A stretch of DNA of 64,000 nt from Candidatus Zixiibacteriota bacterium (GTDB taxonomy: Bacteria > Zixibacteria > MSB-5A5 > GN15 > PGXB01). The notes below the pieces were generated by a model. That model ran no database searches and had not been told where the DNA came from. It saw only the letters and a list, made by a program, of their open reading frames with translations. Position 1 is the stretch's first letter. The number at the start of each line of letters is the position of its first letter. Location of the stretch: the NCBI GenBank assembly GCA_016933955.1, contig JAFGTT010000036.1, forward strand, positions 1 through 64,000, given 5' to 3'. Shown piece by piece: positions 58,226 to 64,000 of this stretch. Position numbers and translations under genes: made by a program.

Positions 58226-58273
58226 ATGGAGGGGGTTATTCTCCCGATGTTCCTTGCTTTGGTGCCATTTTGA
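58226..58273 (+). CDS. Possible 15-codon leader peptide
   Basis: A short frame (MEGVILPMFLALVPF) whose TGA overlaps the start of the PAS-LuxR gene (TGATG). It contains GGAGGGGG at its 5' end, which could pair with CTCC 10 bases on. No ribosome site clearly precedes it. It is reported because the large gene itself has no obvious ribosome site, so coupled re-initiation is conceivable. Confidence 0.3.
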   Translation: MEGVILPMFLALVPF

Positions 58274-60792
58274 TGGATAACCTCACAAAATACAGGAAAA
58301 TAATTGAAAGCGCGGCTGAGTCTATTTTCATTTTAAACCGTGATGGGTTTATAGAAATTATCAACCCTGCCGCGGCCAGCAGATTCGGTGGTTTACCCGG
58401 GGAGTTTGCAGACCGGAAACTGACAGATGTCCTTCCTGGCAAAAACACGGATGAATTTCTTCTTCAGGTGGCTAAGGTATTCACGACGGGTAAAGACCAA
58501 TTGGTAAGTGCCATTCCGGATTGTTTCAGACCGGGAGGCGACTATGAAACCAGCCTGGAACCGATTCGAAATACAGATGGCAGTATTACATCGGTGCTTT
58601 GCATATTACGAGTTATAAGTAACAGCATAAAACCAGAAAGCGATCTCGACAGCGACAAGGATTTCGTTCGAACTCTTCTGGATACGGCAAACAGTCTGAT
58701 TGTTTGTCTCGACGAAGCGGCGAAGATAAAGGTTTTTAATCGGGAATGTGAGCGGATAACCGGATATAAAAGTGAAGAAGTCATAGGATTAAGCTGGCCC
58801 AATAATTTTCTCCCTCCCTCTCATCGTCATCAGCATCTGAAAGATTTCAAATCCTGGATTAAAGCTCATCCACGGGATGTGTACGATGGACCGCTGGTAA
58901 CCAAATCGGGCGAGATTAGGACTATCCTCTGGTCGAATTCATGCCTGATATCACCAAAAACAGATGAATTGACAGCCATAGCCGTCGGTCATGATATTAC
59001 CGACCGGATCAGAATCGAACAGGCTCTGCGTGAAAGCGAAGCGCGTTTCACCGAAGCGCTGGAATATTCTCGCGATATTATGTACCGTCTGAATCTCGAC
59101 ACTATGGAATACGATTATATCAGTGCTTCGGCCCGTGTGATTACCGGCTATACATCCGAAGAAATCACTCGTTTCGGACCTGAGGGGATGCGTCGGCTGA
59201 CCCATCCCGCAGACCTGGAACGCCTCAAAGACCATCGCCGTCAATTGATTACATCATCTCCTGAAAGCGAATCATCTTCAACAACGGAATATCGGATAAA
59301 ATGCCATGACGGCAAATATCGCTGGCTCAGCGACAGTCATGCGCTGGTTCGCGACAGTGATAATAAACCCCGTTTTATAATAGGTAATGTTCGCGATATT
59401 ACCGATCAGAAATTAATCGAGGAGGCTTTGCATAAAGATCAAGAGGAACTTGAAAAACGGGTAGAGTATCGAACGGCTGAGCTTAAAACGGCCAATCTGC
59501 AATTAAAGGAAGAAATCGACAATCGAAAAACGATCGAGATGGCCCTGAGAGAAAGTGAAAAACGGTATGAACTGGCGACAAATGCCGGTCACGTCGGTGT
59601 CTGGGACTGGAATCTGGAAACGAATGAAATCTATATCGATCCGAAATTGAAGGCCATGCTGGGATATGCGGATTATGAAATCAAGAATCATCTTGATGAT
59701 TGGGTGAAATATGTCCATCCGGAAGATATAGAAAAGGTTGGTTCGGAGACCGAGAGGCATTTAAGTGGTGAAACTCCCCAGTTTGAAATAGTGTACCGAA
59801 TGTTTCACCGGGATGGCAGTACTCGCTGGATTCTGGCCCGGGCTACCGCTGTAAGTGACAGAGAGGGAAAGGCTGTCAGGATTGTCGGAACCGATACCGA
59901 TATAACCGACAGACGCCTGGCTGAAATTGAACTCCTGGAGACTCGCCAGCGTCTGAGCCATTTGCTCTCATCGAGTCCGGCTGTTATCTACAGTTGCGGC
60001 GCGGCTCCCGATTTCCCGACTACCTTTATCAGCGATAATATTTTCGAGAGTCTGGGATACAATCCCATTGAATTCTACGATGATCCCTTTTTCTGGAGCA
60101 AACAAATTCACCCCGATGATTACCAGCGTATCATGGATACGCTTAAATCCATAACAGCAGACGGGGCATTCTCCTACGAATATCGTTTCCGGCGCAAAGA
60201 CGGTCAGTATGTCTGGTTATTTGACGAACTGTCGGCAATGGCCGATGATGATGGTCATATCAGTGGATTGATTGGAAGCTGGTTCGATATATCCGCCAGA
60301 AAGAATGCCGAGAGAATGCTTCAGAAAACGGCAGATGAACTACGTCTGGAAAGAGAGATATTGGCCGAGAAAAATATCGCCCTAAAACAGATTCTGGATC
60401 ATATCGAAACCCGACGGGAGGAATACAAACAGGCGATTTGTCGGGAAATCGAATACGCAATTCGACCCTTTATGAGAAACCTGAAAAGGCTGTCAGCCGG
60501 GATGGATCGGCGCGAGATTGAAGGGCTTGAAACCAAAATCCAGGGGATTTTAAATAAGGATATTGACGTTTTCCGAGATCGTTTTTCACGATTATCTCCA
60601 CGCGAAATGGAAATCTGTCAACTTATTCGTAACGGCATGTCTTCCAAGCAAATATCCGACCATCTCAATCTTGCGGTAGTCACCATCCATAAACATCGCG
60701 AACAAATCCGCAAAAAACTGGGGATAACAGGAAAAGACATAAATTTAATCTCTTTTCTTCAAAACCGCTGGCCAGATAGACATACGCAATAA
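58273..60792 (+). CDS. Multi-PAS regulator with LuxR-type HTH output
   Basis: 839 residues, cytoplasmic. Five PAS regions (about 5-110, 130-250, 255-375, 425-550, 555-685), several with PAC motifs ('VGHDITDRIRIEQALRESEA', 'GNVRDITDQKLIEEALHKD', 'VGTDTDITDRRLAEIELLET'). Coiled coils lie near 375-425 and 685-770. The C-terminal LuxR/FixJ helix-turn-helix is 'LSPREMEICQLIRNGMSSKQ' onward with 'HKHREQIRKKLGI'. It has no kinase or receiver domain, so it would be a one-component transcription factor. Ligand or cofactor unknown. A terminator follows at 60850. Confidence 0.9.
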   Translation: MDNLTKYRKIIESAAESIFILNRDGFIEIINPAAASRFGGLPGEFADRKLTDVLPGKNTDEFLLQVAKVFTTGKDQLVSAIPDCFRPGGDYETSLEPIRNTDGSITSVLCILRVISNSIKPESDLDSDKDFVRTLLDTANSLIVCLDEAAKIKVFNRECERITGYKSEEVIGLSWPNNFLPPSHRHQHLKDFKSWIKAHPRDVYDGPLVTKSGEIRTILWSNSCLISPKTDELTAIAVGHDITDRIRIEQALRESEARFTEALEYSRDIMYRLNLDTMEYDYISASARVITGYTSEEITRFGPEGMRRLTHPADLERLKDHRRQLITSSPESESSSTTEYRIKCHDGKYRWLSDSHALVRDSDNKPRFIIGNVRDITDQKLIEEALHKDQEELEKRVEYRTAELKTANLQLKEEIDNRKTIEMALRESEKRYELATNAGHVGVWDWNLETNEIYIDPKLKAMLGYADYEIKNHLDDWVKYVHPEDIEKVGSETERHLSGETPQFEIVYRMFHRDGSTRWILARATAVSDREGKAVRIVGTDTDITDRRLAEIELLETRQRLSHLLSSSPAVIYSCGAAPDFPTTFISDNIFESLGYNPIEFYDDPFFWSKQIHPDDYQRIMDTLKSITADGAFSYEYRFRRKDGQYVWLFDELSAMADDDGHISGLIGSWFDISARKNAERMLQKTADELRLEREILAEKNIALKQILDHIETRREEYKQAICREIEYAIRPFMRNLKRLSAGMDRREIEGLETKIQGILNKDIDVFRDRFSRLSPREMEICQLIRNGMSSKQISDHLNLAVVTIHKHREQIRKKLGITGKDINLISFLQNRWPDRHTQ

Positions 60793-60849
60793 ATACGCAA
60801 TTATCTCGCGTTGACATTTTATTGGATTATCCCTTTTATGAGTTTTAGG

Positions 60850-60873
60850 AAAAAACAAGGGCACTTGTTTTTT
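60850..60873 (+). terminator. Terminator of the PAS-LuxR gene
   Basis: 10-bp perfect stem AAAAAACAAG / CTTGTTTTTT with a 4-base loop, ending in a six-T run. Confidence 0.85.
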
Positions 60874-60911
60874 CTGTGGAGGTTAATGACTCCTAAGAAA
60901 GAAGTATGGCA

Positions 60912-60960
60912 GTAAGTCCATGGCTGTGAGATGGGAGCACATCTCACACCATGGACTTAC
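60912..60960. repeat. Long imperfect palindrome (20-bp stem, 6-base loop)
   Basis: The outer arms GTAAGTCCATGG / CCATGGACTTAC (12 bp) and inner arms GTGAGATG / CATCTCAC (8 bp) are separated by a small 2x1 internal loop; the terminal loop is GGAGCA. No U-tract follows, so it is not a simple terminator. It could be a structured RNA, an operator pair or a repeat-element remnant. Confidence 0.8.
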
Positions 60961-61181
60961 ACACTCTGGCGTGAGTTTTATTGATGTCCGATATAGAAAA
61001 GAGAAAAAGCGCATGTACCTGATTGAATTCCCCCCTTCAAGAGAAATGCCTGAGGAGCAATCTTGCCTCTTTTAGTCACTTTCCGCTTCAGGTACATGTG
61101 CTCTTAAATTCCGCCGATCATAATCCGGCATTAATCGCGGGCAATTCAATTGAAATCATTCATCTCAGCGGGATTATTCAC

Positions 61182-61209
61182 TTGACAAATCCCCTTTATG
61201 GGCTATTTT
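61182..61209 (+). promoter_or_regulatory. Promoter of the giant secreted protein gene
   Basis: TTGACA (61182-61187), 16-base spacer, TATTTT (61204-61209). The leader before the ATG at 61423 is about 205 bases. Confidence 0.55.
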
Positions 61210-61422: not shown

Positions 61423-64000
61423 ATGTGTAAGGAGTTAATGATTTTAATCATGGTATTGGTGCTCTTTGCCATGATTATTGGACCGGCTGTCAAAGCTGAT
61501 ACAATCTTAAAACATGGCCTAAACCCGATTCAGAAAATTAACCCGCAGGCTCCCAAATATCCCGATTTGAGTGCCGTTGAGCATAATCAACCGGCTTTCC
61601 AGAAACCGGCCTCGGGAATAAAGGAAATCGAAACGCCTCAGTCTCTAACTCCACCCCAATATTTCTGCGATTTTATTGATTATTCTGGCGGGGCCGCAGC
61701 CTACTACTGGCTGGTTCCGGACAATTACAATGACATTGAAATGGGCATGCGGTTTGACTCGGAAGTCAACTATAACTGCACCCTGCTCACAGCCTGGGTG
61801 GGAATATACGGTTCCTATATGTCGCAGGTTCCGGGGACACCGGATATGAGAGTCACGGTTTATGCCGATGACGGTTTCGGATTGCCGGGAACTGCCCTGG
61901 GATCGGTTGTGGTTCCATATGAAAATCTTCCAACTTCCGGCCTGGCCTATGTGGCCGCCGATTTGACTTCTCTGGGACCCTTGGTATTTACCGACGGGGA
62001 ATCATATCATATCGGGGTTTCTGTGGATAATTTTGTCGATGGCGACACCCTTGCTATCTTATCCGACGATGGCACCGCCGGAGATAATCGCAGTTGGGAG
62101 AACTGGAATGGAATATACGGCTTCATGAGTGATGATTGGAGTATTGATATCAATTTCTGTATTGGAGTCGATTTCTGCTGTAATTTGATTCCATACAATA
62201 ATTGCTACACCATGGACTGGTCCGGACCGGCCTATTATTACTGGAACCAGCCTGATGCCTATGACGATGACTATTTCAACATGAGATTCAATTCCTATTA
62301 TGATGCTGATACGCTTAAAGAAGTGGGTATCGCCCTTTACGGACCGGCCACCGTTGGGACGCCGGATTTGGATATTTATGTCTGGGGCGACGACGGTTCG
62401 GGGTTCCCTGATTTATCCAATGAAATTGTCAAAGTCACTATTCCGTTTGAAAATCTGGTTTTCTACCCGGAATATAATATCGTTGATCTTTCGGCATTGA
62501 ATTTAATCATGTATGATGATTTCTTTGTCGGCTGGTCAACCAACGAAATCAGTGATCCGACGGGAGTATTGGCGGGTTTGTCCGATGATGGCAGTTACGG
62601 TTTTAATCGCAGTTCCGAATATTCCGATGGATCCTGGGGAAGTATGCTCGATGACTGGGGGGTTGATGTCAATTTCCTGATGTATGCCTATGTTTGCAAT
62701 GATCCCCAGTCGGAGTGTATTACCGTTGCCGATGCCTGCAATCTGAGTTATTTCTGGCGACTCCCTGATGCTTACGGCGATGTCGGCGAATATCAGAAAG
62801 TCTCCCCATCATTCTCCGGCGATTGCCGTCTGGAGAAATGCCGGGTGGCTTTCTACTGGCCTTCAAGTGAATCCACCCTGCCGTTATATACATATAATAC
62901 CGCGGTTCAGATATGGGACAGCGATGGTCCCGATGGTCTACCGGGCGCCAAACTGACCGAAGTTATTTTAACTCCGGCCGATTATATACTTTATCCCGGG
63001 ATGGTGGAAATCAATCTGACAGATATTCCTGGTTTTTATAATCATTTCGATCATGCTCTCTGGATCGGGGTGGAATCATTTGCACCTTCACCTGATGCCG
63101 GAATAAGATCACTATCGGATGATGGAAGTTGTGGCGATTATAATTCATGTGAGGCCTGGTACAATGGCGGCACACTGATTTTCGGCTATATGGCTGACGA
63201 TTGGTCGGTGGATGTCAACTTCATTATTGAAACCGACATTTGCTGTGAACCGCTTCCGCCCACTCCGTGCTGGCCGGGCGAAGACTGGCCGACCATGGGT
63301 CAGAGTTTTGCCAGAACCAATCGTTCTCTCAGTCAGATAGCCTATGATTTGCAGGGCAATATGACCAAAGCATGGGAATATGCGGCGGGTCAGGTGAGCA
63401 ACCTGAATAGCCCCGTGGTTTACATCGATACAATCGTGAATTATTTCTTGAATCAGCTGGTTGCGATTGACCTTAATGATGGCTCCGAAATCTGGAAGCG
63501 GTTAGCTGACGGTTTTGAGATCGGAGGCGGTTGTTACGCCACGCCGACCATATATAACTTCGCCGCGTACGGTGAGGATGTCACTCTTATTTTCACTCCG
63601 GGCGGTGACGCCAAATCATTCAGTGCCATCAACCTGACCGATGGGACCACCCGTTGGACAAGAAACTACCTGGCTCACAGTCACCATTTTATGACTTGGG
63701 GAGTTTCGGTAATTGTTGATATCGAAGGGGTTCCTTATGTCATCTATAACGATGATAACGGCGACATCTACTGTGTCGAAGCATTGACAGGTAATATTTT
63801 CTCCGGCTGGGTTGCCAGCGGGGCCGGAAATCCGGTCAATCTCGGAGGGGCTATTTTCAAAGGGTTGGCCACCGATGGTTACCAGATTTACATCGGTACG
63901 GATGATGATGTTTCCAACGGAGATATTTATTGCCTTGATGCCGCCACCGGAATTCTGGTCTGGCAGTTCGCCGATCATCAGCTTTGCAATCTCGATCCCG
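61423..64000 (+). CDS. Large secreted repeat protein with PQQ-like propeller, partial
   Basis: Open frame from ATG 61423 to the window end (859 codons, no stop). AAGGAG sits eight bases upstream, then a signal peptide ('LIMVLVLFAMIIGPAVKA'). Three related beta-rich units follow (about residues 78-255, 260-430 and 432-610), each with 'YYWLVPDNYND'-like starts and a 'LSDDG..(S/M)DDWS(I/V)D(I/V)NF' ending. From about 625 a beta-propeller with PQQ-like blades begins: 'LVAIDLNDGSEIWKRL', 'SAINLTDGTTRWTR' and 'IYCLDAATGILVWQF'. The N-terminal units are not a family I recognise. Surface or extracellular location is inferred. The C-terminus lies outside the window. Confidence 0.85.
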   Translation, partial: MCKELMILIMVLVLFAMIIGPAVKADTILKHGLNPIQKINPQAPKYPDLSAVEHNQPAFQKPASGIKEIETPQSLTPPQYFCDFIDYSGGAAAYYWLVPDNYNDIEMGMRFDSEVNYNCTLLTAWVGIYGSYMSQVPGTPDMRVTVYADDGFGLPGTALGSVVVPYENLPTSGLAYVAADLTSLGPLVFTDGESYHIGVSVDNFVDGDTLAILSDDGTAGDNRSWENWNGIYGFMSDDWSIDINFCIGVDFCCNLIPYNNCYTMDWSGPAYYYWNQPDAYDDDYFNMRFNSYYDADTLKEVGIALYGPATVGTPDLDIYVWGDDGSGFPDLSNEIVKVTIPFENLVFYPEYNIVDLSALNLIMYDDFFVGWSTNEISDPTGVLAGLSDDGSYGFNRSSEYSDGSWGSMLDDWGVDVNFLMYAYVCNDPQSECITVADACNLSYFWRLPDAYGDVGEYQKVSPSFSGDCRLEKCRVAFYWPSSESTLPLYTYNTAVQIWDSDGPDGLPGAKLTEVILTPADYILYPGMVEINLTDIPGFYNHFDHALWIGVESFAPSPDAGIRSLSDDGSCGDYNSCEAWYNGGTLIFGYMADDWSVDVNFIIETDICCEPLPPTPCWPGEDWPTMGQSFARTNRSLSQIAYDLQGNMTKAWEYAAGQVSNLNSPVVYIDTIVNYFLNQLVAIDLNDGSEIWKRLADGFEIGGGCYATPTIYNFAAYGEDVTLIFTPGGDAKSFSAINLTDGTTRWTRNYLAHSHHFMTWGVSVIVDIEGVPYVIYNDDNGDIYCVEALTGNIFSGWVASGAGNPVNLGGAIFKGLATDGYQIYIGTDDDVSNGDIYCLDAATGILVWQFADHQLCNLDP

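Follow-up and report, generated by a model that had tools for sequence, protein, structure and literature searches.

The window analysed here is a stretch of 64,000 nucleotides from a Candidatus Zixiibacteriota genome (contig JAFGTT010000036.1), and the hairpin under study, HP1, lies in it downstream of a gene for a PAS-LuxR regulator. The features of this region, all on the forward strand, are as follows.

58270-60792, + strand: PAS-LuxR regulator gene, 840 aa, with several PAS domains and a C-terminal GerE/LuxR helix-turn-helix (HTH) (ORF, Pfam)
60783-60799, + strand: tandem operator TACGCA-N5-TACGCA with an 11-bp period, box 1 overlapping the final LuxR codons (sequence, relatives)
60811-60816, + strand: -35 box TTGACA, 11 nt past the second operator box (sequence, alignment)
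60834-60839, + strand: possible -10 box TTTTAT, spacer of 17 nt (column counts over 32 loci)
60849-60874, + strand: AT-rich hairpin near the putative RNA 5' end, the "terminator" of the initial annotation (sequence, folding)
60912-60960, + strand: HP1, 12 bp, a bulged C and 9 bp, loop GGAGCA (sequence, folding, shuffles)
60935-60941, + strand: GAGCACA at the tip of HP1, spanning five bases of the loop and the two that open the 3' strand of the stem (motif counts)
61009-61101, + strand: HP2, conserved element with outer stem GCGCATGTACCTGA / TCAGGTACATGTGC and inner hairpins (folding, pattern, covariance model)
61030-61035, + strand: CCCCCC, loop of the left inner hairpin of HP2 (sequence, unpaired probability)

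Three neighbouring proteins were examined: a peptidase, the PAS-LuxR regulator and a PQQ_2-like protein. The regulator matched the Pfam families PAS_3 (E 1.4e-70) and GerE (E 7e-12); its start codon, TTG, is uncertain. A search of 80 genomes from the order detected LuxR homologs in 62. The PQQ_2-like gene begins at 61423, in the same direction as the LuxR gene and HP1, and is preceded by a promoter-like TTGACA/TATTTT (61182-61209) and by a 15-nt inverted repeat (61187-61201/61405-61419). No tRNA or tmRNA was found in the window. The interval, initially described as gene-poor, contains a putative promoter, which starts within the end of the gene before it, and, beginning 48 nt past HP1, the larger structured element HP2.

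In HP1, an outer stem of 12 bp, formed by GTAAGTCCATGG (60912-60923) and CCATGGACTTAC (60949-60960), is followed by a bulged C at 60924 and by an inner stem of 9 bp, formed by TGTGAGATG (60925-60933) and CATCTCACA (60940-60948), which closes the loop GGAGCA (60934-60939), for a total of 21 bp. The outer stem and the six-base loop agree with the initial annotation, whereas the inner stem, given there as 8 bp, has one pair more. The claim that the hairpin is too perfect for chance held: a 64-nt piece folded at -36.5 kcal/mol (z -8.19), which 0 of 200 shuffles equalled, and the 21-bp helix was attained by 0 of 100 shuffles of the ~110 nt preceding HP2. Inspection of the sequence also bore out the lack of a U-tract, the stem being followed by ACACTC; HP1 does not qualify as an intrinsic terminator and was absent from the terminator scan. 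It is part of no visible gene, as had been stated, and the overlapping ORFs of 42 to 51 aa have no gene support. A search of its own 3.38-Mb genome (DNA search, E up to 0.001), as the initial annotation had suggested, returned no copy besides HP1 itself, the second row being the same palindrome on the opposite strand. The hairpin is thus single-copy, which argues against the proposed repeat relic.

The conserved promoter is located ~95 nt upstream of HP1 and starts within the last LuxR codons. The arrangement common to the relatives between LuxR and HP1 is TACGYA-N5-TACGYA-N11-TTGAC (60783-60815 in the window). To describe it on the LuxR side, the best locus per genome was taken for the 30 genomes of the order that matched most closely; 29 of these loci (window included; identity 42-100%) had sufficient downstream sequence, and spacers of N4-6 and N10-12 were permitted. 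With up to two mismatches, the operator-promoter was present behind 28 of these 29 close LuxR homologs, exactly so in 22, and in none of the 1160 shuffles or of the 131 windows taken farther downstream as controls. When the operator was searched for in the 80 genomes of the order with one mismatch, 31 places in 23 genomes were obtained, and the reversed pattern yielded one match in one genome. A LuxR homolog with its aligned end 17 to 30 nt before the operator accompanied 25 of the 30 places examined; L055 and L075 hold a single operator, and a match that overlaps it on the antisense strand counts among the five places lacking LuxR. Behind distant LuxR paralogs the operator (up to two mismatches) was present in only 11 of 40, four of the 40 having already been counted among the operator places, with 2 of 154 in the controls.

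A positioned -10 element accompanies the operator in the relatives. Among 32 loci aligned on TTGAC, there was an A in column 23 in 21, a T in column 26 in 22 and a T in column 27 in 27. TAnnnT was present in 18 of the 32 (shuffle mean 4.05, maximum 10) and a TATAAT-like sequence (at least 4 of 6) in 12 (shuffle mean 4.3, maximum 11), as measured against mononucleotide shuffles and with L051 and L059, both lacking LuxR, included in the set. Most relatives carry TAnnTT with a 16-nt spacer, and the -10 box of the window is a weak match, off this consensus. The operator plus -35 arrangement has the appearance of a promoter at which an activator binds beside the -35 box, and the adjacent LuxR protein would be the one that binds the TACGYA tandem; transcription of the window RNA would then start near 60846. 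The "good terminator" of the initial annotation (60849-60874) proved to be a weak CAAG/CTTG stem inside A6/T6, absent from the terminator scan. The proposed promoter precedes this hairpin, which would therefore lie close to the start of the RNA.

Over the phylum, the operator pattern was present in 33 of 132 genomes. Outside the order it occurred at 15 places, with LuxR upstream in two of the seven fetched, one of them 184 nt away, and in these sequences the linkage between LuxR and operator is weaker. The exact TACGTA operator was found in 19 stretches of a species-genome collection, nine of them titled Candidatus Zixiibacteriota. LuxR preceded it in 9 of the 19 (7 of 9 Zixiibacteriota, 1 of 2 titled "bacterium" only, and 1 of 8 others, a Candidatus Scalindua), a sample that overlaps the genomes of the order search and is not independent of it. 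At the Scalindua locus (L083, JASMMK010000012.1), a 38%-identical LuxR, the sole such LuxR detected in that genome at E 1e-8, is followed 46 nt past its aligned end by the operator-promoter and then by an ORF that is hemerythrin-like by eye.

Some operator-linked loci appear to lead into protein genes. At L050, L063, L064, L065, L078 and L079, the LuxR-linked operator is followed by a leader of ~220-300 nt and an apparent ORF start, the ORFs being zinc-ribbon-like or HTH-like by eye, and the operator-promoter may drive a protein gene there. L059 and L077 have an operator with no LuxR upstream and, ~250 nt on, a similar small ORF (by eye), possibly a second target of the regulator.

When the whole interval was compared with 60 genomes (its own included), two same-family genomes matched besides its own, in HP2 stretches only, and HP1 had no match outside the window. 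Among 80 genomes of the order (its own included), five matched an HP2 pattern and none the reversed control; in every case a LuxR homolog precedes the element, with only the gene end aligned in G004. The window's genome holds one copy, the remaining rows of the search being of 14 to 19 nt with E 0.6 or worse. Among 132 genomes of the phylum, the HP2 covariance model matched nine, eight of which had served to build it; G031 was found only at E 0.005. These nine, which we call class A, are the window, G014, G010, G004, G034, G051, G059, G049 and the divergent G031. In all nine the order is LuxR, promoter, leader with one or more stem-loops, and HP2, with a LuxR homolog and the promoter always in front. 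Class A is patchy, amounting to 9 of 132 genomes overall and 3 of 78 of the better ones.

Of the 112 cells of the HP2 outer stem, 96.4% are paired; among its 14 pairs, 3 are changed on both sides and 8 are invariant. The covariation score was reached by 27 of 500 shuffles and the number of pair types by 390 of 500, so that the support from covariation is weak. For its part, HP1 recurs in relatives by position and tip motif only: its stem sequences are unrelated between species, and that of the window is the most perfect. The covariation sought by the initial annotation was modest for HP2, and HP1 has stems that differ from one relative to another. The longest leader helix exceeded all 100 shuffles in two of the nine class A loci only (the window and G049), being attained by 68 of 100 in G004 and 44 of 100 in G031, and leader folding energy was unremarkable in G051 (z -0.8), G034 (z -1.3) and G014 (z -1.5).

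Rfam gave no match at the gathering score for the window and nine related loci (chance-level matches, E 0.62 and 0.82), and none up to E 0.5 for 16 related loci. ORFs of at least 20 aa with a Shine-Dalgarno-like (SD-like) sequence were present in five of the nine class A RNAs (20 to 27 aa, at differing positions). The window's RNA has no such ORF; its 51-aa ORF (60920-61075) lacks an SD-like sequence. A small protein gene was therefore rejected, as no conserved ORF with a ribosome-binding site was present in the class A RNAs. The covariance model matched one more place, a second, diverged HP2-like element, L108 (G034:C18:31201-31310, minus strand), which contains a C7 run and GAGCACA and has a 12-bp hairpin directly ahead, with no LuxR operator.

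Two short motifs recur in the predicted loops. GAGCACA is present in eight of the nine class A RNAs, with 0.2 occurrences expected in all, and CCCCCC lies within HP2 in eight of the nine. GAGCACA is also the commonest 7-mer of the leaders, preceding HP2 in six of the nine, whereas the best count for any 7-mer over 200 shuffles was 4 (once). In the window RNA the predicted mean unpaired probability is 0.71 for GAGCACA and 1.00 for C6; over class A it ranges from 0.42 to 0.84 and from 0.54 to 1.00, respectively, with RNA means of 0.32 to 0.46, and both motifs are predicted to be more open than the average of their own RNA, except for GAGCACA in G031 (0.42 versus 0.44). Titration of CsrA through GGA loops, the way in which CsrB and RsmZ act, was considered and rejected, given that GGA is not common to the class A tips (by eye).

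The same motifs were counted in 47 operator-linked stretches (at least 250 nt, identical starts merged, up to two operator mismatches for close and three for distant homologs). The top two 7-mers were GAGCACA (12 versus 0.8 expected) and TCCCCCC (11 versus 1.3), their reverse complements occurring in one and none of the 47, and most of the enrichment stems from class A. In the 38 stretches outside class A, some of which are homologous to each other, so that the figures are optimistic, the motifs were modestly enriched: GAGCACA was present in 4 (0.79 expected, reached by 0 of 200 shuffles), GAGCAC in 8 (2.69, 2 of 200), TCCCCC in 9 (2.98, 2 of 200), runs of at least five C in 14 (8.2, 2 of 200), at least six C in 5 (2.9, 27 of 200) and at least five G in 15 (12.4, 42 of 200). 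A separate count over 38 loci, which omits the two antisense rows of L055/L075 as well as L074 (lacking LuxR) and keeps L051, L059 and L077 (likewise lacking it), gave C runs of at least five in 23 of 38 versus 8.9 in shuffles (maximum 16), and G runs in 9 versus 9.6. Sequence comparison shows LuxR to be followed by the operator-promoter, the promoter by leader and HP2 in that order, and the loops to carry recurring motifs that are predicted to be accessible. Among the candidates first offered for HP1, a small structured RNA is the one that gained ground, in that promoter, position, second structured element and tip motif all recur.

Our preferred reading, to which we assign a probability of roughly two in three, is that HP1 is the first stem-loop of an undescribed noncoding RNA of ~260 nt that belongs to a PAS-LuxR/sRNA module. 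The RNA (about 60846-61105) would be encoded directly behind the regulator gene, with the 60849-60874 hairpin near its 5' end. The PAS domains would sense a signal, upon which the regulator would occupy both TACGYA boxes, located where its own gene ends, and, bound beside the -35 box, switch the RNA on. The RNA would fold into HP1, with the GAGCACA tip, and HP2, with the CCCCCC loop, HP2 probably also forming the 3' end. The C-rich loop could pair with target mRNAs at G-rich ribosome-binding regions, blocking their translation with no need of Hfq, and the GAGCACA tip may provide a second contact, for target RNAs or an unnamed protein partner. Transcription, the ends of the RNA, its targets and the direction of control are what we infer here. 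Hfq was not found in the window's genome (96.6% complete) by a search that was positive in 5 of 14 control genomes. The window itself brings three complications, the weak -10 box, an HP2 with no clear T-run and a T6-containing hairpin just past the proposed start.

That same hairpin, lying ahead of HP1, would suit a different explanation, in which HP1 and HP2 are the 3' untranslated region and terminators of the LuxR mRNA and have no promoter of their own. Both structures do lie downstream of LuxR on its strand, and HP2 is followed by a T-run in G014 and G059. Nevertheless, the gene end is repeatedly marked by a TACGYA tandem, by TTGAC at a constant distance of 11 nt and by a -10 box in register, none of which an untranslated region would need, and the window's HP1 has no U-tract, so we consider this unlikely. 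Control of the gene on the other side is improbable as well: the stretch would act in cis as a leader or attenuator of the co-directional PQQ_2-like gene (61423), with GAGCACAU (60935-60942) pairing with AUGUGCUC (61096-61103) and opening HP2. This 8-nt complementarity is present in the window, and at L050, L063, L065 and L079 the operator is followed by ~220-270 nt and then an ORF (by eye). However, the next large ORF past HP2 faces HP2 in G014 and G004, leaving a leader nothing to act on there; the PQQ_2-like gene has the promoter-like TTGACA site at 61182 ahead of it; and two of the nine class A RNAs, G014 and G010, show breaks in the complementarity (by eye), which is why a GAGCACA pairing to the 3' arm of HP2 forms no part of our preferred reading. 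Since the -10 box of the window does not fit the family consensus, a leader becomes slightly stronger and a separately transcribed RNA slightly weaker.

The palindromes might also act as DNA, whether as a mobile repeat, a recombination site or a regulator-binding palindrome. Long inverted repeats, the palindrome ACATGT in the HP2 arms, the invariance of most HP2 pairs and the lower-scoring match of the HP2 model on the reverse strand would all be in keeping with this. We judge it very improbable, given that HP1 and HP2 have one copy each in the window's genome (L108 in G034 being the only extra HP2 copy in the 132 genomes), that order and strand behind LuxR are fixed in class A, and that the motifs are strand specific, as the counts of their reverse complements indicate. 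The recombination site named by the initial annotation fares no better, the neighbours being a peptidase, the PAS-LuxR regulator and the PQQ_2-like protein and the class A element lying behind a LuxR-type gene in nine of nine cases.

The sRNA module that we favour has parallels in known systems. VqmA of Vibrio cholerae couples a PAS sensor to a LuxR-type HTH, the vqmA and vqmR genes lie side by side, and the VqmR RNA depends on Hfq. The regulator described here likewise combines PAS families with GerE. It differs in having several PAS domains and in being followed by the RNA on the same strand, and, unlike the Hfq-dependent VqmR, the RNA has no Rfam family and comes from a genome in which no Hfq was found. 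According to the passages retrieved from the papers on that system, a sensory transcription factor activates a regulatory sRNA gene (PMC8284805, PMC13251380), and the VqmA operator is a GG-N6-CC palindrome, in contrast to the TACGYA-N5/6-TACGYA conserved here (PMC8284805). As operator and RNA differ, we do not claim membership of that system. The other parallel is sX13 of Xanthomonas, which the passages retrieved from PMC3771888 describe as highly structured, with three C-rich loops within 115 nt, and as acting independently of Hfq on mRNAs with G-rich motifs near their start codons; C-rich-loop sRNA parallels in S. aureus and Helicobacter are mentioned there too. C6 similarly lies in a predicted open loop in eight of the nine class A RNAs, but there is a single C6 loop in addition to the GAGCACA tip, and next door lies a LuxR-type regulator whose operator is conserved (compared with sX13 as given in PMC3771888). 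Both systems would be parallels in the way they work. A PAS-LuxR-controlled sRNA with a C-rich loop was proposed on account of these two precedents and the lack of a detectable Hfq.

In the matching text portions, literature on Zixibacteria or Zixiibacteriota together with sRNA, small RNA or noncoding RNA amounted to nothing but unrelated-looking work on mouse gut infection, and LuxR-linked sRNAs of this kind were absent among the matches listed. If the proposal is true, it would add, for an uncultured phylum, both a sensor-to-RNA cassette and an sRNA family not previously described, reveal from sequence the promoter that a one-protein sensor probably controls, and point to RNAs that may function in a genome with no detectable Hfq. 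A broader generalization, which we hold to be doubtful, is that many PAS-LuxR sensors of the Zixibacteria each drive an adjacent structured RNA through the TACGYA tandem, the RNAs being different in sequence and alike in a GAGCACA/C-rich loop code in which GAGCACA would be recognised by a general partner, for instance an RNA chaperone that takes the place of Hfq. The Streptomyces PAS-LuxR regulators PimM and PteF also fuse a PAS sensor to a LuxR HTH; they differ in governing antibiotic biosynthesis genes, and no linked sRNA is mentioned in the text portions seen among the matches listed.

Further RNA-like groups were recognised by eye among the operator-linked stretches: one type has GTGGAAGTTG in common, and in a set of short stretches CCCTCCCCC-like runs sit in terminator-like hairpins. 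They comprise L057, L058, L060 and L076 (genus g32), L052/L053, L045/L047, and L021, L038, L040 and L051. At L153 and L155, from other families of the class and both with LuxR upstream, the operator leads into stretches that resemble each other, each containing a CCCGGGGGGGAAT hairpin together with a second hairpin that is GC-rich.
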